A DNA stretch of 64,000 bases from Prorocentrum cordatum (taxonomy: Eukaryota > Sar > Dinophyceae > Prorocentrales > Prorocentraceae). Location of the stretch: contig CAUYUJ010018882.1 in NCBI GenBank assembly GCA_963575745.1, forward strand, positions 347,833 to 411,832, written 5' to 3'. The position numbers and the translations under genes were made by a program. Every line of letters begins with the position of its first letter. Positions within the stretch are counted from its first letter, which is position 1. The notes below the pieces were generated by a model. That model had not been told where the DNA came from. It did no database searches and saw only the letters and a list, made by a program, of their open reading frames with translations. Below are positions 7,717-31,079 of the stretch, in pieces.

Positions 7717-7718
7717 TA

Positions 7719-7754
7719 CCCAGATCATTCGTTACCGAAAAATTTCGGTAGCGA
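7719..7754 (+). repeat. Left terminal inverted repeat of the giant element
   Basis: 36 bp identical to the reverse complement of 31044-31079. It contains an inner near-palindrome TTACCGAAAAATTTCGGTA. The TA before it (7717-7718) is one half of the target-site duplication. Confidence 0.95.
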
Positions 7755-7978
7755 TCGGGAACGACCGGTCGCGACCGATTCGGCCAAAATTTCGGTAGCG
7801 ATCGGTAGGGATCGGTCGCGACCGATGAGCAAAAAACGCTACCGACGGTAGCGTTTTTTGCCTGACAAATCGGTCGTTTGCCTGACAAAATCGGTCGCTT
7901 GCCTGACAAAATCGGTTGTTTGCCTGACAAAATCGGTCGTTTGCCATTCGCTACCGACCGTTACCGACGAACCAAAAC
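7755..7978. repeat. Left subterminal repeat zone with hairpin
   Basis: Words such as CGACCGGTCGCGACCGAT recur to about 7826. Next comes a 33-bp hairpin (7829-7861) with 15-bp perfect arms starting GCAAAAAACGCTACC and loop GAC. Then four copies of a ~21-bp unit TTGCCTGACAAAATCGGTCG fill 7859-7945. The GCCTGACAAA word also occurs near the right end (30882), so these may be transposase-binding repeats. Confidence 0.8.
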
Positions 7979-8006
7979 GATGATGATGATGATGATGATG
8001 AGGATG

Positions 8007-8042
<36 letters not shown>

Positions 8043-8221
8043 GTGATGGTGATGATGGTGATGGTGATGGATGGTGATGATGATCATGATCATGATCATG
8101 ATGGTGATGGTGATGATGATGATGATGATGATGATAACTTTGATGATGATGATGATAACTTTGATGATGATTATGATGATGCTGGTTTGGATGATGAAGG
8201 TGAATATGATGATGATCATGC

Positions 8222-8270
<49 letters not shown>

Positions 8271-8335
8271 GATGATGGTGATGATGAAGATTATGGTGAT
8301 GATGATGGTGGCGGTTCTGATGATGAAGTCTAGGA
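7978..8335. repeat. (GAT)n-rich microsatellite
   Basis: About 350 bases of ATG/GAT repeats with minor interruptions. Translations as poly-Met, poly-Asp or poly-His are artefacts. Confidence 0.95.
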
Positions 8336-8643
8336 GGAGGAGGAAGAGGGGGGGATACTTGACGATCGAACGCTTATACATACTCTTCACACGCACGCTG
8401 GAACTCACGTAGGGCTAAGTAGGGGACCCCTCGAAGAGGGGGCGGGGCGAACGTTCGCGAGGCCCTCGCCCTGCCATCCACGGGCTGCCCGCCCTCCAAC
8501 GGCGACGGACCCGTAGAGGCTGGCAGGGCAGAGAGGTCGCGATCGTTCGCCCGTCGAAGCCCCCTTTTCAACGGGCCCCCTATCGAATGCAGGAGGGGGG
8601 ATGGATAAAGAAGAGGACGGAGGAAGATCGGGAGAGGATGAAG

Positions 8644-8681
<38 letters not shown>

Positions 8682-10039
8682 GAGGGAAGGGGACGAGGAG
8701 GGGAAAAACGAGCTCCTGCTACTCCTCCTACTCCTACTCCTCGTGCTACTCCTCCTACTTTTCCTACTCATCCTATTACTCCTCCTACTCATCCTGTTAC
8801 TCCTCCTACTTTTCATGTTCCTCCTACTCCTCCTAATATTCCTGTTACTCCTCTTAGTTCTCCTACTCATCCTACTCCTACTAATATTCGTAATCATCCT
8901 ACTCCTCGCTCCTGGCCCAGCCGCCATTTCTGGCGCAGGCGCGGGCGCCGCTCCGCTCCCTGCGCGGCCCGTGCGAAGGAGAGAGGGGGGAGAGAGATGT
9001 ATGTATATATATATAGAGAGAGAGGGAGAGTCGAGCTGATGGTGGGGATGACGACCATTACGATTTCAACTACGATGCCGATGGCACTTATGATGACGGC
9101 CGTCGTGTTAAAACAAAAACGCACCCGTGCATTCAGAGGGGGGGGGCGTGGATGCGCGGAAGGGGCGGGGGGGGACAGGCGAGGGGGAGTCAGGTGGATA
9201 AGGGGTTTGCATCAGTAGTGGCAGCGGTAAGCATTAGGAAGTAATAGAAGAATAAAAAGAAGAAAAGGGAGGAGGCGAGCACAGAAGCACGCGCAGCCGA
9301 GCGTGAAGCGGGGATCGGCTAGCATTGCGTCCACCCCCTGCCCCGCGAGGGTGGAAGGAGGCGGAAAAGAATGAGGAGGAGGGGGAGAAGGAGGAGGAGC
9401 GGACGCGGCGGTGGGAGGAGGAGCAGCAGCAGCAGCAGCAGCAGCAAGAGCAGGATGGGGGAGGAGGAGGAGAGGGAGGGGGAGGAGGAGGAGGACGAGG
9501 AGGAGGAGGAGGAGGAGGAGGAGGAGGGGAACCGACCTCCTCCTCCTCCTCCTCCCCCCCTCCTCCCGCTATTTCTCCTCCTCCTCCTCCTCCTCCTCCT
9601 CCCCATTCCTCCTCCTCCTCCTCCTCCTCCTCCTCCTCCTCCTCCTCCTCCTCCTACCTCCTTCAACCCCCCCTCCTTCCCCTGGGGGCTGACGCAGTGC
9701 TCGCCGAAAAAGGCTGCTCCTACTCCATGGAGCAGCGCTGAAATTCCAGATCCGCAGCCCAGCATTGGGCAGGCGGCAGCACGCTTCGTCCTCGCGTCGT
9801 CCGTCCTCCCCTCCCCTCCCTGCCCTATGTTCCGCCCGCCGTCCCCCGACCCCTCCTCCGCCCCATCCTCCTCCATCCTCTGTCTCCCCCTCCTTCCTCC
9901 TCCTCCTTCTCCCCCTCCTCCCCCTCCGCCCCCCATTCCCCACCTCCTCCTTCCACCTCCTCCAAGGACCTGTCTCGTCTGTGCCCCGCCCCAAAAAAAC
10001 TCCTTCCTTCCTCCTAGGGCCCGTGGCGGGACCAACCTT
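8336..10039. other. Non-genic stretch with microsatellites
   Basis: GA tract near 8650-8682, CTC/CTA-rich tract 8713-8905, GGA tract 9365-9530 running directly into CTC tract 9537-9655, and CCTCC-rich tract 9785-9965. Nothing between them looks like a conserved exon. The stretch separates the left end of the giant element from the 3' end of its probable transposase gene. Confidence 0.6.
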
Positions 10040-12494
10040 GACGAAAGTCGTTTATATGCCTGCCCATTCTCATCCTCTCAGAAACCTTACGGCATACACT
10101 ATTGATAGATGTACCAATGGCGCAAGCACCCCCGACACGGGAGACGAAGCGTTGGTAATCTTCTGGTTGGTAGCACCAAGTGTACCGAGGGTTAAGTGGC
10201 ACCTGGCGTACCAGGTGCCACAAAGTGGTGTTTATTGACTATGGAGTACTTCAATTTGTGTTGTGCGAACGCCCTGCTGGATAACGATTGGTAGCATTCA
10301 AGCAGGTCGTCTGTCCACTTCTGGATGTCATTACACTCTGCTGCAGAAAAAAACAGATCGCCCGAATCGATCAGCTCATAGATTTTGCAAAGGCTCTTCA
10401 GCATGAATACCCTCGTTCGTGAAGGTGGGCTACCGTCGTCATAGTCCCTGGACAACTGAAGGCCGACGCGAGACAACCAGCGTGCCTCGGCCGCCTTCAC
10501 GGCGTGGGACAACACAGGAAAATCCGCGAACGGGGAACCAGGGTCTTTCACAAAGTATCCGAACTTGAAGTGTGATAGGCGGTGCTCGATGCCTTCCTCC
10601 TGGTAGACCTCCTGGATTCGCTTCCAGAGCTTCTCCACGCGGGCGGCCCTGGGTCCACGATCGTGCTCTGTAACTATCTCGAAGAACAAATTGGCGAGAA
10701 TGTGGCCCGTAACGCCGAGGTCAAAAGTATGCATCACGTCCAAACACAACGTGGACACAGTAACTCCCCATATAGTGAACACAGGGTGCTCAGCTCGGAA
10801 ATCTCGTTCGTGAAATTTCCAGTGGTTCGGCCCATCTGCCTGAAAATTATTGAACGGGTTGGCGCCGCTCTTGTCGCAGGGGCACAACCAACAGAACTGG
10901 TTGTCATTTGAATACGGCATGTGTAGGTAGGCTGCGAAAAATTCCAGGTCACCGAGGATGCCGTATATAAACGCCCTGAACGGCTTCGTTGGGCTACACA
11001 GGAACTGCCCACCCAACCTGGCACGATCAGGGTCTAACGGGTCGCCGTTCCAGTCCGACTCTCTCGTTCAAGCGAGGGTTATTGGCTAATGGTAGAGGCG
11101 GCGCAAGGGGCGGGCGGGCGGGCGGGGGATGGGGGGGCGCGCTGCGGGGGGAAGGGGAGGGGGGAGGGTGCGGGCTGGGGCTTCGGGGCCAGGGAAGACG
11201 AGGGATAGCAACGGGGAGGAGCTGAGGAGAGGGGCAAGCAATAGAAACTGACGCGGCGGAGCAGCATATCCGCAGACAGGCTACCGAACGCGGGCCCTGA
11301 TGGCATTAAAATGCGCAGAGGGCAAACGGGTGGAGATGGACGAAATTGGAAGCACGACGCAAGGCGCGGGACCACCGACAACACCCCCCAGGCCCCCTTA
11401 CACGTGTAAGTCTAGTTTGGTGTGTGCGTGGTGGCGAAGCCAATCTAATCTGTTCTAGGGTGCTTGCCCTCCGCCAGTGCCTGGAAGCTCCATCGCAACA
11501 CTTCCCATATCTCCAGGAACGTATCTTTGCCACCATGTTTTTTCTTTTTTCGTTAGGGTGCTCAATGGCCAACTGATTAAATTCAGTGTGAGCGCCTTTG
11601 TTGAACCGACCCCTAACAACCCTGTAAGGCTCAACGATACGAGGCTGTCCCGTGTGAGAAATTCGGCCCCGTCGCCGTGGATCCTCAAAGGCACGCATGT
11701 GGTCGCGTAACTTCGAACGGCCCAGACTGGGTGGTCTCGCAGACGTCGGTCGCCCCTGGGATGGTTGTTGGTGCCGCGCAGAATGATAATGCTCGAGCGG
11801 GAGTGCCGCCGCTGAAGCGTCGCCCTCCTGTCCTCCACCCCCGATGTTCCCCCAGCTGTTTCGTTTTCCTGACCGCCCCCCGCCCCCGCCCCCTCGCCGT
11901 CATTAAATGGCCAGGGGGAGGGGGGGAGGGGTGGGAAGGGGCGCGCGGCGGGTGGGGGCACCCGAAAACTGCTGGCACCAACACATGAGAGGAAACAAAA
12001 AAAAGAAAATGCGTCCTGCTGGCGTGATCCCAGAAGTCCGACAGGCGACCCACCCCGAAGATCTCCTCGAATTCCGTTGGATATTGATGAAATAATGCAG
12101 AAAACCACTCGTGTGGTAGGAGGGCCGCAGCTGTGCCTTCAGTTGGCTTAGTAGTTTTCGGATCGATGCACGACACGGGGAACGCCATGGGCTCTGGTAG
12201 CATATTCCTCCCAAGCATCCTCGTCAATTGTGAATGGATATTGCCTGGGTGGTTCCCCCAGGCGCCCAGGCTCGCGAGCTTCGATATTTCCTGGTGCTTG
12301 AGCCCGTCCCGATGCGCCGCCAGCGCAACGCGTTGAACTTCTGCGGCGGGCATCAAGCCCCAGCACCATTGCTTCAGAAGATACGTCCCTAAATTTGAAT
12401 ACTCTTGCACAGGAACACCTGGGGCCCCATCTGGAGCCTCGTCTGGGCCATCGCCAGCGGGCGACAGCCGACGTTTCTGCCCGCGTTTCACCAT
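10040..12494 (-). CDS. Probable transposase of the giant element (dinoflagellate multicopy family, TNP2/Plavaka-like)
   Basis: Start ATG at 12494 (MVKRGQKRRLSPAGDG). Exon 1 (to about 12035) has AEVQRVALAAHRDGLKHQEI, LASLGAWGNHPGNIHSQLTR and LLPHEWFSALFHQYPTEFEE. A middle part (about 11770-11450) has CVPLRIHGDGAEFLTRDSL, LTGLLGVGSTKAL and DTFLEIWEVLRWSFQALAEG, with a frame change in the A-rich tract near 11545. The core (about 11070-10196) has FRAFIYGILGDLEFFAAYL, CWLCPC and LCLDVMHTFDLGVTGHILAN. The 3' part (10220-10040) has NPRYTWCYQPEDYQRFVSRV after a second frame change at a 26-bp hairpin (10196-10221). The family is expanded in dinoflagellates. GD...C-x2-C...DVMH in this order resembles TNP2/Plavaka-type DDE transposases, and it is the only transposase-like gene inside the TIRs. 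Catalytic residues are not proven. Confidence 0.6.
10196..10221. repeat. 26-bp perfect hairpin at the transposase 3' break
   Basis: Arms GTGGCACCTGG and CCAGGTGCCAC with loop CGTA. The transposase frame changes here; without the hairpin, SIVNKHHF could run on to NPRYTWCYQPEDY. Confidence 0.8.
11085..11225. other. G-rich intronic stretch
   Basis: Runs such as GGGGGGGCGCG and GGGGGGAAGGGG occur between the core and middle parts of the probable transposase gene. No coding sequence is seen here, so it is probably intron. Confidence 0.4.
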
Positions 12495-12714
12495 TGGGGG
12501 CACGACAGGCGGGGGGGGGCTGGGGCGGGGGCCTCGACCCTCGAGCCCGAGCGCCTTGCGATGGTGACGGCATGGGCGAGAATGGAGATGAGGGGGGCTG
12601 AAGCACGGCCACACTTATCGCTGCGTGCGAACTCGCCGTGCGCTGGCTCACATCGCCCACCAATGAGAGCAACAGTCGCATCACATACGAACGCGTTCGT
12701 CTGCCGAGGGGCGG

Positions 12715-13589: not shown

Positions 13590-16500
13590 CGATGTTCAGT
13601 TCGGAGCCCGTGTTGATCATACCTACTGCATAATGTTCAGCTCGGAGCCTTTCTTGAATATGCCGACGCTGATGTTCGACAACTTCTTGGCCTTGTTGAC
13701 GTCGGTGACGTCGTCGACCAGCGCCGCAGAGACAGCGTTGGCCAGCTTCTGGAGATCCTCCATCAACTATTCGATGGGGAGGAAAACAAATCTCCACCTC
13801 CCCTTCGCCATACCCTTGTGGCGCCGACGAAAAGCTGATTTGCCTCCTCCTCCTCCTCCTCCCCCTCCTCCTCCTCCTCCCCCGCTTCCTCCTCCTCCTC
13901 CTCCCCCCGTCCCGTTCCCCTCTTCCCTTGTCCCAGTATACTACGGTGTACATTTGCATTGAACACCCGCCAGTATTCCTCAATCTTGAACCTACAGTTT
14001 GGACTGTCCGTTTTGAAACCACCGTTGCAGGGCGGGGGAGGGAGCAGGGCACGTGCCCGATTACGGGGGGATGGTGGATGAGGGGGTGGAGGGATGGGGT
14101 GCGGGGGGGAGGATGAGGATGATGAGGGGGAGGAGGGTGACAATGAGGAGAAGGAGGAGGAGGATGGATATGAGGTGCATGCGCCTGGCGTCAGTCTGAC
14201 GTCCGTCGGACGCCGTGCTGACGTACGTACGATGTCAATATGGCGCCAGCCTGACGCCACTCTGACGTCAGGCTGGCGTCAGTCTGACGGCATTCCCACC
14301 TCAGTTTGGCGTCATCCTAGCGTCAAAGTGGCATCACTCTGACGTCAGTCTGACGTCAGGCTTACGTCAGGCTGACGTCAGGCTGACGCCATGGTGACGT
14401 CAATCGCGTATAAGATTGGCATCAGGCTGACTCCAGACTGACGTCAGTGTGGCGTCAGATTGACGTCAGTCTGACGTCAGGCTGACGTCAGTCTGACGTC
14501 AGACGGGCGTCAATCTGACGTCAGGCTGACGCCAGACTGACGTCAGTCTGATGTCAGTCTGACTTCGGACGAACGTCAGACCGACGTCAGTCTGATGTAC
14601 CCATCCGCATCCCCAGTTTAGACTGCTGACCTTTGTCGCAGCCTCGATGTCAGCTTTGTCCTGCCCGCCCTCGCGCTTGATGGTCCTGATCGCGCTGACG
14701 AGCGCGCTGCAGCCCTCCTTTGAAACGGCGGGAGGGCAGGGTTGGACCGAGGAGGGGGGCGCGTTAGGGTGCGAGGGGGAGTGAGTATTTGGGGCACGGC
14801 GGAAAGAAGGCATGCGCCAGGATGGCGGACAATCGGGCCAGTGAGGCCGAAACGCGGACAGAAGGTGAAGGGGGTCGGTGGGGGGGCGAATGCAAAGAAC
14901 TCAAGCGAGGGGCAGGGGACAAGGGAGGGCAACAGGGGGTAACAGAGGAGGAAGACGAGGATGACGCGAATGGCGAGGAGGACGCGGAGGAGGAGACGGA
15001 TGGTAAGGATTGGGAGGAGGATAAGGAGAATGAGGATACGGGGAGATATTGCGGTAGGAGAACGAGGGTGAAGGGGGAGGAGGAGCAGGCACGTGAGGAA
15101 GCGATAGTAATCATGGCCCGAAGTCTCCTTGATGTAGCCCTCGATCTTTTCGAGGATCTCCGAACCCTTCTGCGAGCTCTTGATCGAGTCGGGGTTGATC
15201 TTCGAGATGGCCTCCGCCTGTTTGCCCCACACCTTGATGATCTTCTTGATGTCAGCCTGGGCAAGGCTGGCGCTTGGATCGCGCTCGTGCCCTCCCCCAT
15301 GCCCCATCTCATTTAAGGCGAGGGCGTCTCCCATCTCTCATCCGCATCTCTTCCCACTCTTCCCCATCTCTCGTGCGTCTCTCCCCCGTCTCACTTAGGG
15401 AATGGTGAAGTCAAGGAGGTGGGGCCCAAGAACGGGCGAGGGTGACGCATGCAAGGGCGCTACAGGTTGATAAGTCGATGGGGCGAAAGGGCGAGGGCCC
15501 GATCGGTTGATGCCCTAATCCCACCAGCTCTCTGGGCTTAGGTGGTATAACGCGTTGTTTTCTGCTCTATACCCCTTCCCCTACCTCCCCTGGGGCTGGG
15601 AGGGGGGGGGGGAGGGGGGGGGGCGGAGGCACCGCAGCGTCCAAGATGGCCCAAGAAGGTCCCAAGAGGGCTTCATTGTCGCACGATGGCCTCCACGATG
15701 GCCCATGCTACTTCAAGATGGGTCAAGATAGCCTCCACCATACCCCCAAGAGGCCCCACTACAGCCCCAAGACGGATCCAAGTGCCCTCCGAGCCCTCCA
15801 CGGCGCCCTCCAAGATGCCCAAACCCTTCAAACGCCTAGGGAAAATCACTGTGGTTGTCATTATCGCCTTCTCGCTTCCCATGGGCGTTGGAAGCCTCAA
15901 GATGCCACAAACGAGGCCCAATATGGGGCCCGAAAAGGCCGAATACGGCCCCAATATCGCCCAAGAGGCGCCCACGAACGCTACAAGGGGGGGGGGCCCA
16001 CGATGCCGTTTGAGAACCTCCGAGGGGGCGATGTTAATTGAGGGACCTCATCTTTTTGAGCCATGGTGCCCAAGATGACCCCAAGATGCCTCCCAGCATC
16101 TCCCCAAATGCCCTCCACCCCGCCCTGTGTAGCCCAATATGGCTCCAAGGGGGCCCTAGATATGCAAATATGGCGTTCAAACTTGCCTAAGATAGCTAAG
16201 CATGGCTCAAGATGCCCCCCCGACAGACCTCCAAGATGCCTCAAGGCAGCCTCAAGATGGCCCACGATAGCCGAGCATGGCTCAATATAGCCTCCGACAG
16301 CCTCTAACCGAGCATCGCTCAAGATAGCCTCCGAGAGGCCTCAAGAAAATTGGCAATCAATTATGCATGGGCTCGTTGGGATACGCGAAGCGTCAAGAAT
16401 TGTGTTTTTGTTGTGGGTGAGGGAGGGGGGTGCGGGCGACAAGGCGTGCGATCTTCGAGAGATCGGCTCGAAACCGCGGTCTCCAAGATCTCGCTTCCGA

Positions 16501-19126
16501 GTCCGCTGCACTGCCCTTGCCGCGACCTCGTCCGCCGCGGCCAGCGCCGCGACGGCTCTCGTCTGCGTCCTTGTTCGGCAGGTCCAGGCCCATGCTGCTC
16601 ATGCTGCCTTGGGCTCCGAACGGGGGGGCAAGGCTGGTGGGGCAGGGCGGGGGTGGGTGGGGGAGAGAATCGGCGCGTTGAGGACACGTTGGGTTGCTGA
16701 GTTTAGTTTTGGCGCGGAGGTCAGGGGAGGTGGGGTGGCGGGAGGAGGGGCGAGAGCAGCGGGACCGATCAGGGAATCAGTGGGGAGAAATGGGGGGTTC
16801 AGTGGAGGCGTGGCAGTGGAGGGAGTTGGGGAGTCAGTGGTGGAGTGGGGAGTGGGGTGGTAAATGGACGAGTGGAGGGGCGGGGCCAGTAGCGACGATT
16901 GGGGGCGGGAGGTCACAGCATGGCTCCCTCGGTGCATCCCTTGACATCCCATCATATTATTGCTTATCTTCCTCCTCCTTCGCCTCCTTCTCTTCCCCCT
17001 CCACCTCATCCATTTCCTCATCCTCATCCTCATCGTCCCCCTTCCTGCACGCCCAGGCCTCCGCCGAACATATTACACCATCCCATGTGCTCTCATGATC
17101 CGTTCCTCAGTTAGCTGCGTCCACCCAATCCTCTCATCATATGAATCATCCACATCCTGGCAAATCAGCCCTCTCCCATGTACGTTCCCATCGCGTGCCG
17201 TATATGGCCAGATCGCCGCTCATGGCCAGGCCGCTCATGCCGCTCGCCATGTCGTCGAATTCGCCCTGGTCCAAGCATTTCCTGCCCCTGCCACCCTGCT
17301 CGCGCTTCTTGGTGAACGTCTTGCTCTTGCTGTCGCGAACGATGCAGTACTGCTTCCTGCGAGGGTTGTCGGGGTTCGGGCGCACCTGGGGAACGAACGA
17401 ATGATGCGTGGCGTAGGCGAAGGTGGGGTGTGAGGAGGAGGAGGAGGAGGAGGAGGAGGAGGAGGAGGAGGAGGAGGAGGAGGAGGAGGAGGAGGAGGAG
17501 GAGGAGGAGGGAGGGAGGAGGAGGAGGAGGAGGGGGAAGAGGAGGAGGAGGAGGCGGAGGAGGAGGGGGAGGAGGAGGAGGAGGAGGAGGAGGAGGAGGA
17601 GGAGGAGGGGGAGGAGGAGGACGACGGGATGATTCACGAGGAAAAGGACACGGATACCATCATGAGTGGGGAGTGTCCCATCGGGGAGTGAGGCCGAGGA
17701 TCGTTAGAGGGATGTCGCGTGTATACTACCCACCGTAATGCCCTCACCATTCGTCAGCGCCCCTTTCTTGGCCCCGATGCGTAAAGGCTTGGTGCGCCGT
17801 GGGACCAGATATGGGCGCGAACGAAGAGTAAGGGCATGTGAGCATTGGTAGGTACTTGGGCGTCATCAAAGCTATCCTCCCCATCCTCCCCCTACCTCAT
17901 ACATATGTTTGGGAGCATCGATCCTTGATCCTATCCTCGGCGATCATCTCCTCGGCCTCGCTGCCCGAGAACTCCTCCTTGAGCTTCTTGTGGCTCACCC
18001 ACTCCTCCCTGCGGCCGACGGACTCGGCGAACGAGATCGAGGCGCTGATCCCGAGGAAGCGCTCGCCGAGCTCGGGGTCCTTCAGATACCCCATGAGGAG
18101 CTGCGCCTTGCTGAGCTGCTTCCCGCTGTTGGGCGGGAGATTGTCAGCCTGCTCCAGAACCCGAAGCGCCCGCTCGGTCGCTCGCTCTGCTCGATCGGCG
18201 GTTCAACCGATCTGGGTCGCGCGCTCGGCACTTGTCATCTCTCTGCCAATATGTTCGAGCAAGTGGTCGTTCACGATATCATAGCTGTGTTTCTCTTGGC
18301 GCTCTCCATGGGGAGAGAAACACAGCGAGTGATACGCGTGAGCGGCCAGTGTTTGTATCGATCTGCTTATCGATCAATATTTGAAGGGGAGGGCCAACTC
18401 GTTTTTTTGTTTTCATACGGGCCTCCTTGAAGAGCTCCTCCGCGTCGGCGTTCTTCTTCCTGGCGTTCGAGAAGCGGCCGTAGAGCGCCCTGCAACGAAG
18501 GAGGATGGCATGACAGAGGGGATGAGAGGAATGCTGAGACGGAAGATGTCGATACAGATCTTCAAGGCAAACCGACCGAAGGGAACATTCATCGAACCGC
18601 CATTGAAGATCGTTGCATCTTCCTTCACAACATTCCCTCCATCTCAGTCGGACATCCTCCCCCACCCTTTGATGGGACATGGCCTGATCTCCTGCCCAGA
18701 GAAGATGCACTTGAGGTGCGCGACCGAGGTGTGGTCTGCGTGGTCCTGGAAGACCTTGATCTTCGCATCCAAGTCCTTGCACCTGCTAGCGGCCGCCGCG
18801 AGCTTGGCGATGGGCCACCTTCAAGGTTCGGGGGCGGAAATGGTATGTATAAAGAGGAGGTACAGTGGCGGATGGCGAGGGTAAGGGCAGCGAGGAGGAG
18901 GAGGGCGAGGAATGACAGAGAAGGGTATGACGAATCGGAAGAACCGAACTGTTGGGGATCGTAGGTGTTTCTGGGTGGGCCACATGTCACACGATGTCTT
19001 GCCGCTCTTCGGGATCAGCGCAAGCGGGATCTCGTCACTGTCGATCTCCTGATCGGGGCTCTTTCGAGCAGCAGCTGGCTTGCGCTTGAGCTTGAGCGCC
19101 GACTTCATCACACGTTTCGGAGCCAT
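13590..19126 (-). CDS. Multi-exon gene B inside the giant element, unknown function
   Basis: Start ATG at 19126: MAPKRVMKSALKLKRKPAAA, a Lys/Ala-rich start common among dinoflagellate proteins. Likely exons on the minus strand: ~19126-18980 (EIDSDEIPLALIPKSGKTSC); ~18810-18670 (RCKDLDAKIKVFQDHADHTS); ~18495-18420 (LYGRFSNARKKNADAEELF); ~18180-17930 (SKAQLLMGYLKDPELGERFL and EEWVSHKKLKEEFSGSEAEE); ~17390-17220 (NPRRKQYCIVRDSKSKTF); ~16605-16445 (MGLDLPNKDADESRRGAGRG); ~15280-15125 (DIKKIIKVWGKQAEAISKI); ~14730-14630 (GCSALVSAIRTIKREGG); ~13770-13625 (LMEDLQKLANAVSAALVDD, then SNISVGIFKKGSELNIMQ and stop). A second terminal copy GSELNIAL plus stop lies just downstream near 13590. Introns hold GAG tracts, TGACGTCA arrays and a dispersed repeat. 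It resembles an expanded dinoflagellate-only family of Lys-rich proteins; no enzyme motif is seen. Splice sites are unproven. Confidence 0.6.
13800..14170. repeat. CTC- and GAG-rich tracts in the gene B 3' intron
   Basis: CTC/CCT tract 13838-13905 and GAG/GAT tract 14112-14165. Each is a purine/pyrimidine asymmetric repeat with no coding support. Confidence 0.8.
14185..14605. repeat. TGACGTCA palindrome array 1
   Basis: More than twenty near-regular copies of (C)TGACGTCA(G) and one-base variants, spaced roughly every 10-12 bases, in the gene B intron. TGACGTCA is its own reverse complement. Confidence 0.9.
15520..16401 (+). repeat. ~0.88-kb dispersed repeat, copy 1
   Basis: Begins CACCAGCTCTCTGGGCTTAG, with a following GGTGGTATAACGCG like a tRNA A-box region. 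It passes through a C/G-rich run, then a body of CCAAGATGGCC-type words, and ends GGGATACGCGAAGCGTCAAG. Copy 2 at 19882-20772 matches along its length by eye, and a 3' fragment lies at 46680-46872. Confidence 0.85.
17430..17625. repeat. (GAG)n microsatellite in gene B intron
   Basis: Nearly 200 bases of GAG/GGA repeats with few interruptions. It abuts the protein-like exon ending near 17390. Confidence 0.95.
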
Positions 19127-19565: not shown

Positions 19566-19881
19566 TGTCGCCATGCTAGTGTCATATCGAACGCATGTTT
19601 GTGAAGTGCGAATAGTAGGTGGTTGTGCTGATGTGTATGGTGTTTCGCTGCCTTAACCTAGCACGCATATGTTAAACGTGCCGAAAATACGAAAACCCTG
19701 GCACCTCGTTAACCAAACTATCATACATTATACATTCGGATATGCCTGAACTGGAAGGAGAGACACGACCTGACCAAACTGAACTGCACTGGCCACATCA
19801 AGATCAGCAACGCTGAACGGGATTGCACGGCACCTGACAATAATGGATCCCGCTGCACGGCAACTAGAATGTGACTGAAAT
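19566..19881. other. Unannotated gap between palindrome array and dispersed repeat
   Basis: About 300 bases without recognisable coding or repeat structure. Confidence 0.4.
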
Positions 19882-22211: not shown

Positions 22212-22269
<58 letters not shown>

Positions 22270-25200
22270 ACGGTGCTCCTACCCACCTCCTCCTCCTCCT
22301 CCTCCTCCTCCTCTTGTTGCCAGTGGTATCTTCCCCCTCCCAAGCACAAGGTGCTTCCAATTCCGTGCATTATCGGGTTTCTGGCGTGGCCGCGGCGAGC
22401 CCCCGAAGAAACGCAATGCGGGATGAACAAACGTTTTTTTGAACGCATCTGTTGTATCCAACGTGTACTCCCCACTGGCATGCGCGGCTGATAGCCGCCG
22501 CGCAGAAGATGAAACTATGCGCGGTCATTGTTGCGTGTCCTACGCCCCCGCGGACGCAACGTGTCCCAAAGGCCACTCGTGCTTCCAAGCCCCGAGCTTG
22601 GATAAGTATTCGTCGTGAGAGAGGGGGAAGGCGTGCATGTTGAGGGGTGAGGCAGTTTGAGGACAGGGCCGAAACTTCGGCAGGAGGGGCAGTGGGGGGT
22701 GAAGGTCGTTCGAACGTCCTTTCAGCATATTCAATCTCACCCTGCCCGTCGCCCGCCTCATTTCCCTTTCGTTATCAGAGAAGAGGGAATGTGACAATTC
22801 GGGGGGGCGCACGCGTGGGACAGACTCGATATTGGAGAAAGGGAGGTCGAACCACCTGGCATCGTCATCGGGTCGTCACCCACCTCGCTTCTTGAGAAGC
22901 CTTGACCTATGCTCAATGCACTCCTCCTTGGTGCTAGAATTAGCCTCGGCGAGCTTCAGAATCTTCGCGCAAATCTTGGCGTGGTCGGGCGACATCGACT
23001 CCCCAATCTGGATCAGCAGTTTCGGTTTCTGTGAGGTTTTGTCCTTAAACGTAATATAGGACGCCTTGCTACCGTAAGTGACGTACAGCTTGCCCAATCG
23101 TTCGTGATTGGCCCAGCGCGGGAGACCAGAAGAAGTCGCGGCCCCTGAACTGCCTCCCCGTTGACCTGACCTGGCTGCCTTCACGGTTGCCTGAGCGTTA
23201 CATTATTGGGGGTCCGATTCTGACGCGTTAAAGGTTTGCGTTGGCAATTCAGATTTGGAATTTGGATGAACTTGGGGCCACTCGGCCCCGCCGCTGCATT
23301 CACCCCGTTCGATACCCCCAATAATACGTGATATTGAGAAGGGAGAGTCGGTGGACGGAGGGGAGGAGTGGAGGTGGGGTGGGAATATGGGATGCATGAT
23401 CGCGGCGAGGTGGAACGATCGGAGAGGCGATGGGGATGCTGGGATGAGTGGAAGAGTGGAGGTGTAGAAGGAAGAGTGGACAGGGATGGGTGGGGGAGTG
23501 CAGGGGGGTGATGATGACACGGTGGGAGGAAGAGAGGATAACGGCTGTCCGAACACCTTTTCCTCATCGTCGTTCACGCGAATCGCTTGCCCTCCATCTC
23601 TGTCCCCCCATCGGGGTTGACGGGGCTAGCTGATTCGAGATGGCATGGATGAGGGATTGGGTTCAAGCAGCTCAGATTATGATCCCTATGCCTTCATCTC
23701 CCGTTTATTGACTGGAACGGGCACGCACTTCTTGTTCATCTTCCTGATATCATCGTCATCATCTGAATCGTCCAGGCAGAGGGAGGACACCATCTTCTGC
23801 TTCTTGCCAGTGGACCCCCTCGCCTGCACCACGGCCTTCTCTGGGGTCTCATAGACGCTGTCGCCGTCGTTGGGCGTCGAAGCTAGCCAGCTGGCGAGCT
23901 CCTGGCCCAACGGGGGAGGACAATGCGCAGGTGAACGGATGGCGGGCGGGAGAGGGATGCGAGGGCAGGGGCTCAGGAGTGGACGAGCAATGCCACATGC
24001 AATTGGCGCCTCTGGAGGCCCCAGTGTCGATGCAAATGGTGGCCTCTGACGGCCTCAACGCATATGCAGGTGGCGGCCTCTAAAGGCCCCAACGTAGATG
24101 CAAATGTGTGCCTCTGGTAGCCTCTGAAGGGAAGACGGCGCATTAATGCAAATGGCGGCCTCTGAAGCTCATGGTGACGTTTTGGCGGGGATGATACTAG
24201 GTATTTCATGGGCCCATGGCTGTCATTCAAGGTCTCATTCTGGCCTCGTGGGGCCGCTGCGCGGGCCGTTGGCGGCTGGCGATGCTGATGTTTGATGATG
24301 GGTTTGACAAGGAATTGGTGGAGATGGGCTCGCATCACCGCCGCTACCCGCTAGCAAAACATGCTTTCCCCGTTCGACCGAAATCGGCCGATGCACGCCT
24401 GCGAACCAGCATACAACCTAATGACCTAGCGATTGTTCCTCACCCCTGCCGAACGATCAATCACTGGTCCACGCAGTCGCCAAATACTTGCCAAGCTGCG
24501 CCAACTCCCCATCGCACGGCAACGAGTCGCCGTCGCTCTCTTCCTCCCCGGGCTCTTCCTGATCGGTATCTTCGGGCCCCTCCTCCTCAGACGACTCCGC
24601 TCGGAAAGTGCACTGTTCCGAGGGGCACTCATCCAACTCCTCCCCCTTGTCCTCCTCGTCCTCGTCCTCCTCGTCCTTGACCTCCTCTGGGGGCAAGGCC
24701 CCGCTCCCGTCGATCACCGCGACCTGGCTCTCAGGGGTGTCGGGGGCCTGCGGGCTCATCATGATCGAAGCGGTCGGGCTCGCGGGCACCAGCGTTTCCG
24801 TGGACGGGATGTCGCGGGGGGGGGAAACGGTTCATAGTCCATTTGTCCAGCGCGGGCGACATCTTGGGCTCTGGCGAAGAGGCCGCGGAAACTCCGATGG
24901 GCGGGCAGGTAGTGCTTGCAGTCTCGGGGGACTTCGTCGAAATCCTGCGCCGCTTGATCTGGGGAGTCGCATCCGAGCCCTCGGAGCCGTCTGGGAAGGC
25001 CAACCTTAATGTGCCACGACGCTAGACCAGGGCGAACCAGGGCAGAGACGAGAGGATCTCGGAAGGGTTTAACCAATGGAGACGGCGAGGACGGAGAAAT
25101 GGGGTTAACCAAACAGGAGTAGGCGAGGAGGAATGAGGAGGAGTAGGCGAGGAATATCAAGAGAACGATCTGTCTTCTAATGTCACCTCCGTGATCATGA

Positions 25201-28200
25201 TCATCCTCCTCATCGCTCCCATCGTCATCGCCCCCGATCACCATTTCCATATCGAGTCAGCGACAACTGAGCTCGCAGCGCGCTGGGCTCGCGCGTGGGC
25301 AACGAATGCGTGAAACCGCAGTTCAGGCACAAGCACTGCAAGACGGGCGCTTTGAACACGGGCATCTTCGCGATAGTCCCGCAGTTTGGACAGAGGCCAT
25401 TCATCGGTGGGACAAGCACCGACATCCCCGCGGTCGCGTGCAGTGCGACGGCCCCCCCCTCACAACACGGGCTCGGGAGAACAGCTACGAACGATTCGGA
25501 ACAGGCGGCTTCATGATACAACAGCTAGAAGTCACCTACCCATATCCCTTGCACGTGCAAACATACCCCTGGGACCTCGGGATGACTTGGGGTTCTATAT
25601 GTTTTCGTACCTGAACGCCTGGGCATCCTGGAACGTCTGTTTCCGATGGACCCCCCGAAACGGGATCAACACATCCTCCTCCATCCCGAACGGGTGCCCT
25701 CGGAAACGTATTCCTCTGCATCATCCTGACCCCCTTGGAAACGCCCCTCCAATGAAGCATCCGGAACCCCTCCGAAACGCCCGTCCTCGGACACACCATG
25801 AAACCATTATGATATGTCCAGGAACCTTGTGGAACGGGATACATGCATATGTTCATGTATACCCACATATATATATGTATGTGTATATATATGTGTATAT
25901 ATATGTATATTTATGTACATAAATATAATTACAGACTTACATACATACATACACGCAGACACCCATGCACAAACCACATACATTCAAACATACATGCATA
26001 CGTACGTGCGTACTTACCTACCTACCCACCTACCTACCTACATACATACACACACGCATGCATACATACACACGAACATACGTACAAACGTCCTCGCTAG
26101 TCTGATCTGTCCTGCCATGTCCATTCTCAAACGTGCTCCCATCCTTCTCCTCCTTAGCCCCTGCCTCCTCTCCCTCCACATCCTCCTCCCCCTCCTCCTC
26201 CTCCTCATCCTCCTCCTCCTCCTTCTCCTCCTCCTCCTCCCCATCCTCCTCTCCCTCCTCCGCCTCCTCCTTCTCCTCCCTCTTCTCCTCGCCTTGCCCC
26301 CCCTGCCCGTCCCCCCCCCTGCCAGGCTGTGTCCTTGAGCGTCTGCTCGTCCATGCCGCTGCCCTGCTCGAAGTTCCGCTCCTGTTCGTCGAAGTCGCTC
26401 TGCTTGTCGAAGTCGCTCTGCTTGTCGAAGTCGCTCTGCTTGTCGAAGTCGATCTGCTTGTCGAAGTCGCTCTGCTTGTCGAAGTTCCGCTTCTGGTGGC
26501 AGAAGTCGCTCTGCTTGTCGAAGTTCCGCTTCTGGTGGCAGAAGTCGCTCTGCTTGTCGAAGTTCCGCTCCTGCATGTCGAAGTCGCTCTGCTTGTCGAA
26601 GTTCCGCTCTGGCTTGTGAAGTTCCGCTCTGGCTTGACGAAGTCGCTCTGGCTTGTCGATCTCCGCTCTGGCTTGTCGAAGTCGCTCTGGCTTGTCGAAG
26701 ATCCGCTCTGGCTTGCCGAAGTTCCGCTCATGCTTGTCGAAGTTCCGCTCTGGCGTGTCGAAGGTCCGCTCATGCTTGTCGAAGTTCCGCTCTTGCGTGT
26801 ACTCGGCTGCCAAGCTCTCCAGCACGTCAGCATCGCCGAGCGGGATCATGCAGTCGGACGGGTAGTAGCTGGCAGCGCGCTTCGTCCTCTGCGATGGCGT
26901 CGCGGCGCGCGCTGGGCCAGCGGGAGACCTTGTCCTCGGAGAGCGGAAGGGAGGAGGAGGAGGAGGAGGAGGAGGAGGACGAGGAGTAGGACGAGGAGGA
27001 GTAGGACGAGGAGGGGGAGGAGGAAGAGGAGGAGGGGGAGGAACAGGGTTGACGGAGGAGAAGGAGGCGGAGGCGGACGAGAACGAGAACCAAGAGGAGG
27101 ACGAGGACAGGGAGGCCAACCCGACGCCCCCTCTGAGGAATCATAACGCCCGATCTTTGGCCCCTCGGCCACCCTTTTGGGGGTGGCCCAGAACTCCCAA
27201 CCTTGGAAAGGATTCCCACCCCCTTACCCCATATCACCCCCCTGTCCTCCTCTGTCGTCTTTGTCCTCCGCTTCCCCCCCCCTCATCGTCATGAGTATCC
27301 TCCTCCTACTTATCCTCTTAATCATCCGCCGTGTTTCTGCATCCTCCCACTCACCCCCGCCTCGTCCTTCTATTCCTCCTCCTCCTCCTCCTCCGCCTCC
27401 TCCTCCTCCTCCTCCTCCTCCTCCTCCTCCGAATCGCCACCCTGGTCATGTTGTCCCCTCCAGCAGTCCTGCAACGGTAGTCCTCAGGCTCGTCGCGACA
27501 GCCCATGAGGTGCAGGTAGTACCAGATCGTGTCAATCGTCTGGCTGCTGCATTTCCTGAGCGCCTGGTGGGTAAGGGGCGAGAGGCACTCTCAACGGTGT
27601 CACGCCAGCCTGACGTCAGGTTGACGTCTGCCCGACGTCAGGCTGACGTCTGCCCGACGTCAGGCTGACGTCTGCCCGACGTCAGATTGACGTCTGCCCG
27701 ACGTCAGTCCTGACGTCTGCCCGACGTCAGGCTGACGTCTGCCCGACGTCAGGCTGACGTCTGCCCGACGTCAGGCTGACGTCTGCCCGACGTCAGATTG
27801 ACGTCTGCCCGACGTCAGACTGACGTCAGCCAGGCTGATGTCAGACTGACGTTAGTCTAACGTCAGTTATGCTGACGTCACCTGAGCTGACGCCAGTCTG
27901 ACGTCAGACTGACGTCAGCCAGGCTGACGTCAACGTGGCCCAAGGTTGATGTCAGTCTGACATCACACCGAACTACTAGTTGACGGACACTGGTTTACGT
28001 CAGCTTGACGTCAGGCTGACATCAGTATAACGTCAGGTTGACGTCAGTACGCAGCCACGAGCCCACGAACATGACGACAATTGCGCAAATCGCAGCCCCC
28101 AGGACACCGCGAGGTCCCGCGGTGGTCCGTGTGGACGTACCCCCGCTGGGCTTCCCAGGAGCCCACGAACGTGGCGACAGTTGCGCGGATCGCAGCCCCC

Positions 28201-29479
28201 AATGCACCGCGAGGTCCCGAGGTGATCCGCGTGGGACGTACCTCGGCTGGGCCTCCCAGGAGCCCACGAAAGTGGCGACAGTTACACAGATCGCAGCCCC
28301 AAGGAATGGGCAGGATGAGGAGAATGAGGAGAAGGAGGAGGGGGGAAGAGGAATGGGGGACACGAGGGCAAGGAGAGGTAGAAGGAGGAGCAGGGCGATC
28401 CCTCCTCATCGTCACCCTCGTCGTCTCTGTCACGTTCCTCTTCGCCATCACCACCGCCATCATCACCATCCTTCGCCCCCCCTCTTCCTCCGTAGTCTCA
28501 TAGTCATCAGGTTCCTTAACCTCATGATCATGCTCCTGATTCACGGGGCCTGGCGGCGTCTGGTGCTGCTGTCGCGGAGCCGTCGCAGATGTTTCAGCAT
28601 GCACCCGAGTTTGTCGGCGAAGCTGCCACCGCGAGCATCTGGTGTCCCAGCAGCTTCGCGAATGGAACGCGGGTGCCTGCGGGATATTGCGCTACATGTG
28701 GTGCAATGAGGAGATCGGGTAGGAGGAGGCAGAGGGGGAGGCGGACGACGGAGCAGGAGGGGAGGGGATGAGGAGGAGGAGGAGGAGGAGGAGGGGGAGG
28801 AAGGGGGGGGAGGAGGAGGGGGGGAGGGAGACTGACACGGAGGAGGAGGAGGAAGAGGAGGAGGAGGGGGGGGACGAGGGAGGAGGATGGCAAGGAGGAT
28901 GAGCAACATCAGGAAGGCTCCTCCGTTTCCGTCTCATCTCCCCCTCTCCTTTTTACAAACTCCTCCGCATCATCATTCCACCCTCCTCCTTTCTGGCCAA
29001 TAGCACCGTCTCACGACGGCGACGCAGGCCGCGCGCATCTCTGACCAGCGAGCCTCCGCCTCTGGTACGTGCGTCAGCAGCAGCTCCACCTGCACAGGGA
29101 GCAGTATATAATTGTATCATCCAAGAGGCTGCACTCCAGGAAGAATCAGGACGCAACATGTGAGTTGAAGGCACTTTCTGATGGGCACCGCCTACTAAAG
29201 ACATCCAGGGGACAACACAACATCAAAGTGCAAATGCCCTCCCAACCAAACAAACAACCGCCCCTTCCACCACCTCTCCCACCACACCCATGTTCATCCG
29301 ACCCGACCCCCATCAACATGATCATATTCAAGACACAACGATAACAACAACAACTGCAACACCAACAATAACACCAGCCACACCAACAGTACCCACAACA
29401 ACAACACACGCACACCCATACACACAAACACACACACACAACAGCAACCTTTACAACAACAACAACAACAACAACAACA

Positions 29480-29512
<33 letters not shown>

Positions 29513-30058
29513 GCTACACCATAAAAACAACAACAACACAACAACAACTACAACCGCACAACAGCAACAGCAACAAACCATAACCACAATACGAATCAGT
29601 TTAATAATGTTTGCTCACAAAAAAAGGAGGATGGGGACAAGAAGCAGGAGGAGGAGGAGGAGGAGGACGGAGGAGGAGGGTGGCCCCAACGGGATCCGAA
29701 CGTGATCCCCTTCCCACCTCCTCCTACCTCGTCGACGTCCCCAGGTCCCCCCGACCCCCTTCCATGCTATTCCCGCTTGTGTACCTCCTAACAACAATCC
29801 TCCCTCAACCTCCTGTAACGATTTTTGGTGCAGTCCGACCGCCAACTCTGGATTCTTGGCGAGGCTGTCCGCGTGGACAGCTTTGTCCCGCGTGAGGTGC
29901 TCGTACTGCCCTATGTCGAGGGCAGTGCCGACGCCCACGGTCTCCACGTGGTGGAGGAGGGCCGCCTCGAGGCCGTCCTCGAGTGGCGGCGCTGGCCGCC
30001 GAGGGGCCATCTGGCCCCTGCGGGCCCCCGAAGAGGAACGGCCCCGCGCGGCAGCCAT
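21425..30058 (-). CDS. Multi-exon gene C (or two adjacent genes) inside the giant element, unknown function
   Basis: Start ATG at 30058 (MAAARGRSSSGARRGQ). Exon 1 runs to about 29830 and includes ALDIGQYEHLTRDKAVHADS. Further likely minus-strand exons: ~29090-28990 (VELLLTHVPEAEARWSEM); ~27565-27460 (TIDTIWYYLHLMGCRDEPED); ~26950-26330 (GDADVLESLAAEYTQ, then a 6-residue repeat); ~25500-25250 (zinc-ribbon-like CPNCG...CLCLNCG); ~25010-24845 (PQIKRRRISTKSPETAS); ~24800-24465 (very acidic, EEVKDEEDEDEEDKGEEL); ~23900-23690 (STPNDGDSVYETPEKAVVQ); ~23180-22895 (LYVTYGSKASYITFKDKTS, KICAKILKLAEANSSTKEE); ~21862-21425 (SVDELLMELEYLQQRSRHAA, stop at 21425; acceptor TTTCAG). A piece near 22640-22575 (KLGAWKHEWPLGH) is doubtful. 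The TYGSKASYI part recalls a dinoflagellate-only family. One transcript unit is assumed; it could be two genes. A relic spliced leader lies just upstream of the start. Confidence 0.5.
22205..22318. repeat. (GA)n followed by (CTC)n microsatellite
   Basis: About 55 bases of GA from 22207, then CTC from 22282. It is intronic or intergenic relative to gene C. Confidence 0.95.
23990..24175. repeat. ~43-bp tandem repeat
   Basis: Four diverged units around GATGCAAATGGTGGCCTCTG. It lies in an intron of gene C. Confidence 0.8.
25850..26095. repeat. AT-rich TATG/CATA simple repeat
   Basis: Alternating ATATATGTATG-like and CATACATACA-like units, GC-poor compared with neighbours. No gene. Confidence 0.9.
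26130..26300. repeat. CTC-rich microsatellite
   Basis: Pyrimidine-rich CTCCTC tract with short interruptions, immediately downstream (minus strand) of the six-residue-repeat exon. Confidence 0.85.
26385..26810 (-). repeat. 18-bp coding minisatellite in gene C (FDKQSD-type)
   Basis: About twenty tandem copies of an 18-bp unit (plus strand CGAAGTCGCTCTGCTTGT and variants). On the minus strand the frame stays open, giving six-residue repeats such as FDKQSD, FDKHER, FDKPER and FCHQKR. The frame is kept through the array, supporting a translated repeat that is rich in Asp, Lys, Gln and Arg. Confidence 0.75.
26945..27110. repeat. GAG/GAC-rich tract
   Basis: GGAGGAGGAGGACGAGGAG-type purine repeats, adjacent to the start of the repeat-containing exon of gene C. 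Its translation on either strand is low complexity. Confidence 0.8.
27370..27432. repeat. (CTC)n microsatellite
   Basis: About 60 bases of CTC repeats just downstream on the plus strand of a C-rich stretch, and adjacent to the WYYLHLMGCRDEPED exon. Confidence 0.9.
27600..28050. repeat. TGACGTCA array 3, with GCCCGACGTCAG subarray
   Basis: The 5' part is a regular array of a ~20-bp unit TGACGTCTGCCCGACGTCAG (eleven or so copies, 27620-27815). The 3' part is degenerate CTGACGTCAG. Third array of this kind in the giant element. Confidence 0.9.
28045..28315. repeat. ~96-bp tandem repeat, three copies
   Basis: Units share GCCCACGAACGTGGCGACAG and TCGCAGCCCCCA. Copies start near 28048, 28153 and 28260. 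Confidence 0.85.
28690..28920. repeat. GAG-rich microsatellite
   Basis: Purine-rich GAGGAGGAGG and GGGGGG tracts flanking poorly supported coding of gene C. Confidence 0.85.
29335..29590. repeat. CAA/CTA/CAC simple-repeat mosaic
   Basis: ACAACAACAAC tracts, a (CTA)n core at 29480-29512 and ACACACAC. It lies in the first intron of gene C and has no coding support. Confidence 0.9.
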
Positions 30059-30066
30059 GGTGGCTG

Positions 30067-30089
30067 CTTCTAGCCAAAATGGCTGTCGG
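30067..30089 (-). other. Relic spliced leader just upstream of gene C start
   Basis: Minus strand reads CCGACAGCCATTTTGGCT then AGAAG. The dinoflagellate spliced leader has CCGTAGCCATTTTGGCT then CAAG. The match is 13 consecutive bases plus both ends, with small changes. The gene C ATG follows after eight bases. Relic leaders upstream of genes are known in dinoflagellates as traces of mRNA-derived gene copies; this one is degenerate. Confidence 0.5.
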
Positions 30090-30299
30090 GAGAACGTGCC
30101 GTTTCGAAGGGTGAGAAGGGTTTGGAGTGAGGGGGCGGGTGAGGTTTCTGTGGAGGGGGAGAAAGCGACGCGGACGAGGAGGAGAAAGAGGTTTTGGAGG
30201 AGGAGGCGGACGGCGATACTGCCGCTACAGGTTCCAGGAAATCTGGAGGACCTCATCGTTACGCTATCCCACGCGCTGTGATTCATCGATCATATCCAC

Positions 30300-30870
30300 G
30301 CAATTTAGTTATGATGTTAAATTCATACATATATATGTACATATAAATGTATACATATGTATGTATGCGTATGTATACGTAGGTGCTTACACGCGTACAT
30401 ACTATGTATAGATGTGTGTTTCTCTGTTTAGACATGTGCAGTTATAAGTTTCCACATATGGATGTAGCTATGCATGCGTATATCTGCATATCTATACTAA
30501 TGTATGCATATATGTATATGTATATTTACATATATACACGTATATAAATGCGTGTATGTGTGTATAGGTTGATAGTTTATGTTTATACATACGTATACAC
30601 ATATACATACACGGATGTTCAACAGTATACTTACATATATCTTTATACATATACATGCAGATGTGTAAATATATGTTAAGCACGTATGCAACGTACAAAT
30701 ACACCTCTATGTATACATATATATACACATACATACACACATATATATATATACACACATACATACAGATATAACTATATATATATATATCTATATATAT
30801 ATATGAATATATGTATAAATATCTCTACATGTATACATTCACATACATATATATATATAAGAAGACAGCG
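30300..30870. repeat. AT-rich (TATA/CATA) low-complexity tract
   Basis: Nearly 600 bases of TATGTATACATA-like words, the most AT-rich part of the giant element. No gene. Confidence 0.9.
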
Positions 30871-30879
30871 GACATCCGA

Positions 30880-31043
30880 GCCTGACAAAAATGAAACGTC
30901 AGGCCATTCTGCCCTGACGGTCGCGATCGGTCGCTACCGGTCGCGACCGGTCGCGACCGGTAGCGACCGACGGTCGCGACCGGTCGCGACCGGTAGCGGC
31001 GACCGAAATTTTCAGCGTTTCAGAGAACGACCGGTAGCGCCTT
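30880..31043. repeat. Right subterminal repeat zone
   Basis: GCCTGACAAAAATGAAACGT at the inner edge, then repeated GGTCGCGACCGGTAGCGACC words to about 31008. It mirrors the motifs of the left subterminal zone, as expected for transposase-binding subterminal repeats. Confidence 0.85.
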
Positions 31044-31079
31044 TCGCTACCGAAATTTTTCGGTAACGAATGATCTGGG
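31044..31079 (-). repeat. Right terminal inverted repeat of the giant element
   Basis: Perfect 36-bp inverted copy of 7719-7754, followed by TA at 31080-31081, the second half of the target-site duplication. Confidence 0.95.

Follow-up and report, generated by a model that had tools for sequence, protein, structure and literature searches.

Among described DNA transposons, the CMCT clade (CACTA/Mirage/Chapaev/Transib) combines target duplications of 2–5 bp with a transposase in which C(2)C and H(3-4)H motifs lie between the second Asp and the last Glu of the D-D-E triad. The corresponding residues of RAG1 are D600, D708, C727/C730, H937/H942, and E962. Plant CACTA/EnSpm elements encode a transposase and an accessory protein and have subterminal word arrays at both ends; such arrays are bound by TnpA. 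Larger multi-gene units are also known: Starships and Polintons/Mavericks span tens of kilobases, carry several genes, and move as a unit, with a target duplication of 6 bp in Polintons. According to excerpts of one report, most CMCT members have 5'-CA..TG-3' ends, CACTA/EnSpm elements have CAC..GTG ends with 3-bp duplications, and the fungal element PlavakaA has TGT..ACA ends with a 2-bp target duplication (PMC12730594). An excerpt of another records Polinton-like elements from protists (PMC12220804). Here we describe a mobile element, with three genes referred to as genes 1, 2, and 3, at positions 7719–31079 of a 64-kb stretch of the genome of the bloom-forming dinoflagellate Prorocentrum cordatum (contig CAUYUJ010018882.1). 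The window, as used below, is this whole stretch of 64,000 nucleotides.

Dinoflagellates themselves have yielded mainly traces of DNA transposons in the sources available to us as abstracts or extracts. These give Merlin-related sequences in five of seven dinoflagellate genomes (PMC8101967), a 119-bp EnSpm6_SB RepeatMasker match together with hAT matches in an Alexandrium survey (PMC3229502), and a mention of transposons in general terms in a 2024 review of dinoflagellate genomics (PMC11453091). The same kind of extract describes dinoflagellate introners as inverted-repeat elements for which non-autonomous DNA transposons have been invoked (PMC10666404, PMC7789003), and presents those of Amoebophrya without a general transposase (PMC7789003). 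The Merlin and EnSpm traces, as far as these extracts go, are domain matches or short fragments, whereas the present element is complete and multi-gene. For a group in which reports give introners, Merlin-related domain matches, and short RepeatMasker matches, it offers a DNA transposon that is complete and can be defined. A literature search, with most subscription papers and bioRxiv preprints outside its reach, returned no description of such a dinoflagellate element.

Positions 7719–31079 very probably constitute one copy of a family of cut-and-paste-type DNA transposons, 21–24 kb in length, that has three intron-bearing genes of its own. The comparisons described below directly established its end structure and empty sites, the existence of copies, the common gene order, and the selection pattern. 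As an earlier note on this DNA had claimed, the element is bounded by perfect, outward-facing terminal inverted repeats (TIRs) flanked by TA. End comparison matched the left TIR (7719–7754, + strand) to the right TIR (31044–31079, − strand) at 36/36 bp, and the two copies of TA stand at 7717–7718 and 31080–31081, as read from the flanks, the flanks of other pairs, and the empty sites. The first 13 bp of the TIR occur only twice in the 64-kb window, at these two ends. The ends are CCCAGATCAT..ATGATCTGGG; from the fetched copies and the list of degenerate-pattern ends, they are CCCAGATC..GATCTGGG.

Inside the TIRs lie zones rich in the word CGGT[AC]GCGA. It occurs seven times in the left 300 bp (7719–8018), 12 times in the right 300 bp (30780–31079), and not at all in the 22.8-kb interior. 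The corresponding left/interior/right counts are 6/0/8 in copy C8802, 4/1/11 in C5191, and 2/0/3 in C5803. The earlier note had named two other words as common to both ends, which was partly right. The palindromic core CGGTCGCGACCG of the first word, CGGTCGCGACCGGTAGCG, is found at both ends (left two, right four, interior none), as is the second word, GCCTGACAAA (left four, right one). However, CGGTCGCGACCGGTAGCG in full is confined to three places at the right end, and GCCTGACAAA also occurs three times inside the window copy; the latter was not found in C8802, C5191, or C5803.

Relatives of the element were sought in a P. cordatum assembly of 4.128 Gb in 21,875 contigs; the published CCMP1329 assembly is given, in the accessible part of its description, as 4.15 Gb with 59.7% G+C in 22,724 scaffolds (PMC10666404). 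A 37-nt end pattern with up to three mismatches detected 35 ends genome-wide and a degenerate 25-nt pattern detected 109, with zero in the control for each. Pairing was done for 100 of these 109: 56 ends formed 28 outward-facing pairs and 44 remained single. Some of the latter lie close to the end of a contig or have a partner that falls outside the strict pattern. There were no inward-facing neighbours among the 100 ends, and one contig had two ends in the same direction. All but one of the pairs measure 20.4–24.1 kb (27/28), the other being 9.5 kb. The genome search by end pattern and outward pairing that the earlier note had suggested therefore returned long elements, and not only the short solo elements that it had considered as a contrary outcome. 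Likewise, the idea of numerous small relatives with the same ends is not supported among the 28 strict pairs. Introners are intron-sized in the same genome, in contrast to this family; since there is no small element among those pairs, the family is not shown to drive introners. Searches with the left 201 bp (best 40 of 92 candidates) and the right 231 bp (best 40 of 229), paired by eye with the 37-nt pattern matches, gave 22 outward pairs.

Seven further copies were fetched whole. Full-length alignment of four of these (C14914, C15066, C19660, C14562) gave 98.5–98.7% identity to the window copy and 98.8–99.0% to one another (gap columns excluded in both cases), with 0.9 kb of extra sequence in C14562. 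The five close copies, including that of the window, sit in different flanks, and the similarity of the fetched copies stops at the inverted ends. Such near-identical copies point to a recent burst. Together with the outward pairs of like length and the empty sites described below, they bear out the proposal that the element moves as a unit. Short relatives also exist, namely C5803:504237-514176 (9.9 kb, with 100 N) and C15600:813195-822682 (9.5 kb). Only gene 3 blocks and a repeat were detected in the former, which is possibly a non-autonomous derivative. A 43-kb composite lies between outward ends at C18770:57833-100976, with one gene 1 and two sets each of genes 2 and 3; it would represent either tandem copies or a misassembly.

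When the window copy was compared in translation with three diverged copies (C8802, C5191, C5803), conserved blocks emerged that are collinear, all on the − strand, and grouped in three gene modules. This agrees with the earlier prediction of one probable transposase gene and two multi-exon genes. Gene 1 extends from 12.5 to 10.0 kb of the window. Its exon 1 (12016–12494, −) is followed by exon 2 (11451–11755, −), which holds the first Asp (HGDGAEF), and by exon 3 (10014–11058, −, 3' end approximate), which holds the second Asp, C(2)C, H(3)H, and Glu. The gene is open throughout in C15066, where it encodes 609 amino acids in three exons; the two introns between them, both GA-AG, measure 262 and 392 nt. 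GA donors account for 23.8% of donors in P. cordatum according to the portion of the genome report at hand (PMC10666404).

The motifs of the C15066 protein are D188 (HGDGAEF), D298 (GDLEF), C317-x2-C320, H539-x3-H543, and E561 (PEDY), with spacings of 110 residues between the two Asp residues, 263 between the second Asp and the Glu, and 19 between the second Asp and C(2)C. By motif, the first Asp candidate is present in 6/6 aligned exon 2 rows, the second in the 4/4 exon 3 rows that cover it, and the Glu in 6/6. Between the second Asp and the last Glu, C(2)C reads CWLC or CWVC in 4/4 covering exon 3 rows; its variants are CWIC in C8802, CWLC in C5191, CWRC in P0002, and CAQC in P0003. H-x3-H stands 18 residues ahead of the Glu in all six rows. 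This later motif was relied upon because an earlier one, of the HWKFH type, is lost in C5191. The Glu of KAAEAR was rejected as the catalytic acid, as Gln replaces it in two of six rows. On the basis of these motifs, gene 1 is likely to be a CACTA/Transib-like D-D-E transposase.

Database relatives of gene 1, among the matches listed, are P0001 (from P. cordatum), P0002, and the metagenomic homologue P0003, with P0001 the best. A scan of IMG/VR confirmed no gene 1 relatives. The deposited model of P0001 (747 amino acids) runs from a piece of exon 1 directly into a later part of exon 3, leaving out the region that contains the first two Asp residues; gene models produced automatically for these genes are therefore unreliable.

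The most durable alternative is that the element is a real transposon in which gene 2 or gene 3 encodes the transposase and gene 1 is accessory. The function of gene 1 rests on motifs only, its structure predictions are poor, and C5803 has gene 3 blocks with no gene 1 detected. Nevertheless, gene 1 is better conserved than either of the others, and it is in gene 1 that D-D-E, C(2)C, and H(3)H occur at plausible spacing, although genes 2 and 3, with incomplete exons, were less closely searched. We consider this assignment of roles improbable and retain gene 1 as the candidate transposase.

To determine linkage, the genome was searched with protein queries from gene 1 exon 3 (best 119 of 2114 candidates), two exons of gene 2 (best 150 of 696), and exons of gene 3 (best 150 of 919). 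At least 123, 150, and 150 matches were obtained, respectively, and 103 of the 123 counted for gene 1 contain no stop codon. They cluster into 119 gene 1, 85 gene 2, and 91 gene 3 places; these and the following counts hold among the matches listed. At 70 of the 119 gene 1 places, gene 2 is found on the same strand and at most 30 kb upstream (median distance 6.1 kb); gene 3 is present at 63, and both partners occur in order at 53 (gene 3 being allowed to 40 kb). From the other side, 69 of the 85 gene 2 places have gene 1 downstream. No gene 1 place has a gene 2 partner on the opposite strand, and at two, a gene 3 that belongs to an adjacent copy on that contig lies less than 30 kb away on the other side. 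No partner accompanies 16 gene 2 and 15 gene 3 places, where it may merely be unscored. Across the 53 linked loci, gene 1 exon 3 is in places as little as 54% identical to the query.

Comparison of the diverged copies C8802, C5191, and C15066 gave proportions of non-silent (pN) and silent (pS) differences of 0.19–0.29 and 0.82–0.86 (saturated) for gene 1, and ratios of non-silent to silent substitution rates (dN/dS) of 0.35–0.52 for gene 2 and 0.19–0.33 for gene 3. Because non-silent change is far below the silent rate between diverged copies, all three genes were kept functional along the lineage of the element, under purifying selection between subfamilies. In three pairs of close copies, the ratio was 1.1–4.1 for genes 1 and 2 and 0.08–1.7 for gene 3, from 4 to 15 differences; thus no constraint after insertion is seen for genes 1 and 2 in these small numbers.

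A second alternative is that a smaller, ordinary transposon spread in one burst after the recent capture of two host genes as cargo. Genes 2 and 3 have no known domain, elements of 9.5–9.9 kb exist, and C5803 shows only gene 3 blocks, all of which would suit such a history. Two results make it improbable. Order and strand are kept in the 53 loci, including those in which gene 1 exon 3 has only 54–61% identity, and in the exons of genes 2 and 3, silent changes exceed those that alter amino acids between three diverged copies. The constancy of order and strand across diverged subfamilies argues that genes 2 and 3 belong to the element. All three genes are thus the element's own and not recent cargo, and any capture of genes 2 and 3 would predate the family. 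The earlier note had been right that these genes lie between the ends, and comparing internal content between copies, as it had advised, gave the same three genes in the same order and on the same strand at 53 loci; its picture of genes merely carried by the element has to be revised.

The insertion of the window copy cuts a repeat reading frame, of which one part is left at 6321–7718 (−) and the other at 31082–31603 (−), as defined by the joined frame and the empty-site loci. When the flanks are joined minus one TA, they form a single open frame of 639 amino acids on the − strand. A 300-nt query of the joined flanks had 32 matches in the same genome. Two are the window's own halves, apart from each other; 20 other loci span at least 293 of the 300 positions at 79–93% identity, one further locus spans positions 2–300 at 73%, and nine match partially. 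In each of five loci fetched from the 20, the site contains a single TA, in the form CTCGTAGCAG or TTCGTAGCAG. Relative to these loci, the window flank is missing 12 nt at a distance of about 40 nt from the junction, a difference unrelated to the site. Two other copies are inserted in tandem repeats, of 8 bp in C19660 and 11 bp in C18770. A 2-bp collapse best restores the repeat phase in both (31/32 and 23/23 positions), compared with 23–26 and 13–19 positions for other cuts.

It is thus very unlikely that assembly artefact or segmental duplication, instead of transposition, produced this pattern. The assembly is a draft and contains the 43-kb composite of C18770, which would favour such an explanation. 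However, it is contradicted by flanks that differ between the fetched copies, which are alike no further out than their inverted ends, by the one TA at 5/5 paralogous empty sites, by the two tandem-repeat insertions that regain phase, and by the five near-identical copies and 28 outward pairs. A misassembly of the junctions at 7.7 and 31.1 kb, raised in the earlier note, is likewise made unlikely by the independent copies.

The target duplication was assessed in the flanks of the 22 outward pairs, leaving out C15109 for its degenerate right end. Flanking dinucleotides are identical in 15 of the remaining 21 pairs and comprise TA, TC, AA, AC, CG, AG, TT, and CA. By comparison, cross-paired unrelated flanks match in 30 of 420 cases (7.1%, a rate that includes a misplaced left position for C7202), giving a binomial P of ~2e-13 for 15/21. 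Only the window copy and C5803 duplicate TA; the 13 other matching pairs have TC, AA, AC, CG, AG, TT, or CA. Given this varied sequence, insertion is not TA-specific. The target duplication is 2 bp without fixed sequence, and the TA of the window copy, taken in the earlier note for the duplicated target, is incidental. A TA-specific Tc1/mariner (IS630) element would account for the TA on both sides of the window copy and C5803, but it is virtually excluded by the other dinucleotides in 13 of the 15 matching pairs, by the spacing of 263 residues between the second Asp and the Glu in gene 1 against the 34–39 usual in Tc1/mariner, and by the absence of a Pfam transposase match in gene 1. A Polinton/Maverick-like or other virus-derived element of 15–25 kb, with which the size and inverted ends agree, has a negligible probability given a duplication of 2 bp instead of 6 bp and three gene modules, in three diverged copies, of which none matches a Pfam polymerase, integrase, ATPase, or capsid.

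That the element is mobile as a unit is well supported. We regard it as a DNA transposon, probably of the D-D-E type, that combines a constant set of three genes, introns, and a uniform size of more than 20 kb. A number of observations nonetheless weigh against this interpretation. The case for mobility is one of sequence comparison, with no transposition observed. Gene 1 is frame-broken in at least three of the five close copies (the window copy, C14914, C14562), its HWKFH motif is lost in C5191 as noted, it has no family match in Pfam scans, and sequence searches of the PDB gave no convincing relative. AlphaFold2 models are poor, with a mean predicted local distance difference test (pLDDT) score of 47.5 for exon 3 alone and 46.7 for P0003. 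Genes 2 and 3 are known as conserved blocks without defined exon borders, and 49 of the 119 gene 1 places have no gene 2 in reach, among the matches listed. Matching 2-bp flanks are missing in six of the 21 pairs (C16235, C9857, C18521, C14711, C17611, C7202); the first three have one end variant in common, and the flanks of C7202, read by eye, are mismatched (CC vs TG). Finally, the ends of the element are CCC..GGG, in contrast to the CA..TG usual in the CMCT clade.

With regard to the frame breaks, two differences that disrupt the frame are private to the window copy among the close copies and affect exons 2 and 3; exon 3 is open in C15066. In C14914 and C14562, the frame is lost elsewhere, within a run of T, whereas in C19660 each of the three exons reads open. 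Homopolymer errors of the draft assembly may account for some of these breaks.

In comparison with known systems, the element resembles the CMCT clade in its 2-bp duplication, which falls within 2–5 bp, and in the presence of both C(2)C and H(3)H between the second Asp and last Glu of gene 1. The spacing of the candidate D-D-E residues and C(2)C is close to that of RAG1. It differs from the clade in having no Pfam family match, three genes, and a length of 21–24 kb, and its ends fit none of the CMCT subgroups checked. PlavakaA, compared by description only and from an excerpt, has the same 2-bp duplication and the same layout of transposase motifs as gene 1, whereas its TGT..ACA ends differ. 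Neither the CAC..GTG ends nor the 3-bp duplication of CACTA/EnSpm proper is seen. However, the two-part logic of plant CACTA/EnSpm elements fits the combination of gene 1, gene 2 or 3, and CGGT[AC]GCGA arrays. Gene 1 has no Pfam match to a Merlin-type domain. Starships and Polintons/Mavericks are likewise large multi-gene mobile units, from which the element is distinguished by its fixed three-gene set. Pfam scans of the gene modules, whose models are incomplete, gave no match to polymerase, integrase, or capsid; they gave none to tyrosine recombinase either, at which no search beyond Pfam was aimed.

We propose that the D-D-E transposase encoded by gene 1 would recognise the 36-bp ends, helped by the CGGT[AC]GCGA arrays in the outer 300 bp, cut both ends, and join them at a 2-bp stagger. 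The products of gene 2 and/or gene 3 might assist, for example by binding the subterminal arrays, a guess made by analogy with TnpA. Broken copies would move only with transposase from other copies; this would apply to the window copy because its own gene 1 is broken. As a tentative extension, to which we give somewhat less than even credence, the family may be a distinct DNA transposon lineage, either a neighbour or a member of the CACTA/Transib-like clade, that has kept a D-D-E transposase together with two other proteins in a fixed intron-bearing cassette of 21–24 kb. Its genes would then account for an appreciable share of the dispersed gene families in dinoflagellate genomes that lack an explanation.

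A uniform size of 21–24 kb together with introns is, to our knowledge, unusual for a D-D-E element, and such uniformity raises the question of how DNA of this length is mobilised. Dozens of relatives with the same end type and gene order would explain the spread of some unexplained repeated genes. Of the 85,849 gene models of P. cordatum, 52.2% lack an assigned function and 64.8% are dispersed duplicates, in the available extract of the genome report (PMC10666404). Three genes with no known domain in near-identical mobile copies provide a concrete cause for part of this, and annotators should treat these gene families as transposon genes.

Gene 2 extends from 23.1 kb to at least 17.2 kb of the window, perhaps to 15.1 kb. 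Its conserved exon blocks, all on the − strand, are 22891–23118, 18677–18820, 17903–18151, and 17191–17403, the last two being recovered by both translated comparison and genome protein search. A short conserved block lies at 18420–18491 (−, E 2e-4 to 4e-4), a possible short block at 16558–16608 (−, weak, E 0.03–0.05), and a possible exon at 15116–15256 (−, weak, E 0.3 against C5191 only, collinear). Gene 3 extends from 30.0 to 27.5 kb, perhaps to 24.9 kb. It comprises conserved exon blocks at 29810–30010 and 28544–28678 (both −, by translated comparison and genome protein search) and at 28979–29092 (−), a conserved block at 27462–27566 (−, E 2e-5 to 5e-5 against C8802), and a possible exon at 24896–24967 (−, weak, E 0.08 against C8802 only, collinear). 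An extra block at the start of gene 3, common to C8802 and C5191, was not found in the window copy.

Pfam scans of genes 2 and 3 detected no known domain. Weak matches of genes 1–3 to zf-UBP (E 3.2), PRD_Mga (0.027), DUF501 (0.012), and peptidyl-prolyl isomerase (E 0.47 and 0.68) were taken as chance. Homologues outside the P. cordatum genome appear to be few among the matches listed; gene 2 is represented there by P0004 and gene 3 by P0005. P0005, from EukProt and labelled Pyramimonas sp., has a long stretch identical to an exon block of C5191 in the gene 3 region. In view of this identity, a spread to green algae was rejected, and P0005 is a probable dinoflagellate contamination of that data set.

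Within the element, a 0.9-kb repeat is present in two copies (15517–16400 and 19879–20771, mutual identity 80%), with a related stretch in C5803 and pieces at 41.7 and 45.0 kb of the window. Arrays of the 10-bp palindrome CTGACGTCAG lie between conserved exons at 14185–14595, 19384–19562, and 27602–28047. Outside the element, the interrupted flank is itself a repeat, and the adjoining frame 3364–6597 has a weak RVT_1 match (E 0.029, below cut-off). Retroelement-like frames beside the insertion span 2570–6597 (−) and include one of methyltransferase-like appearance, which together with the RVT_1 match suggests a DIRS-like repeat. A weak match to the rve integrase core (E 0.008, below cut-off) at 46932–47498 (+) may represent the remains of another retroelement.

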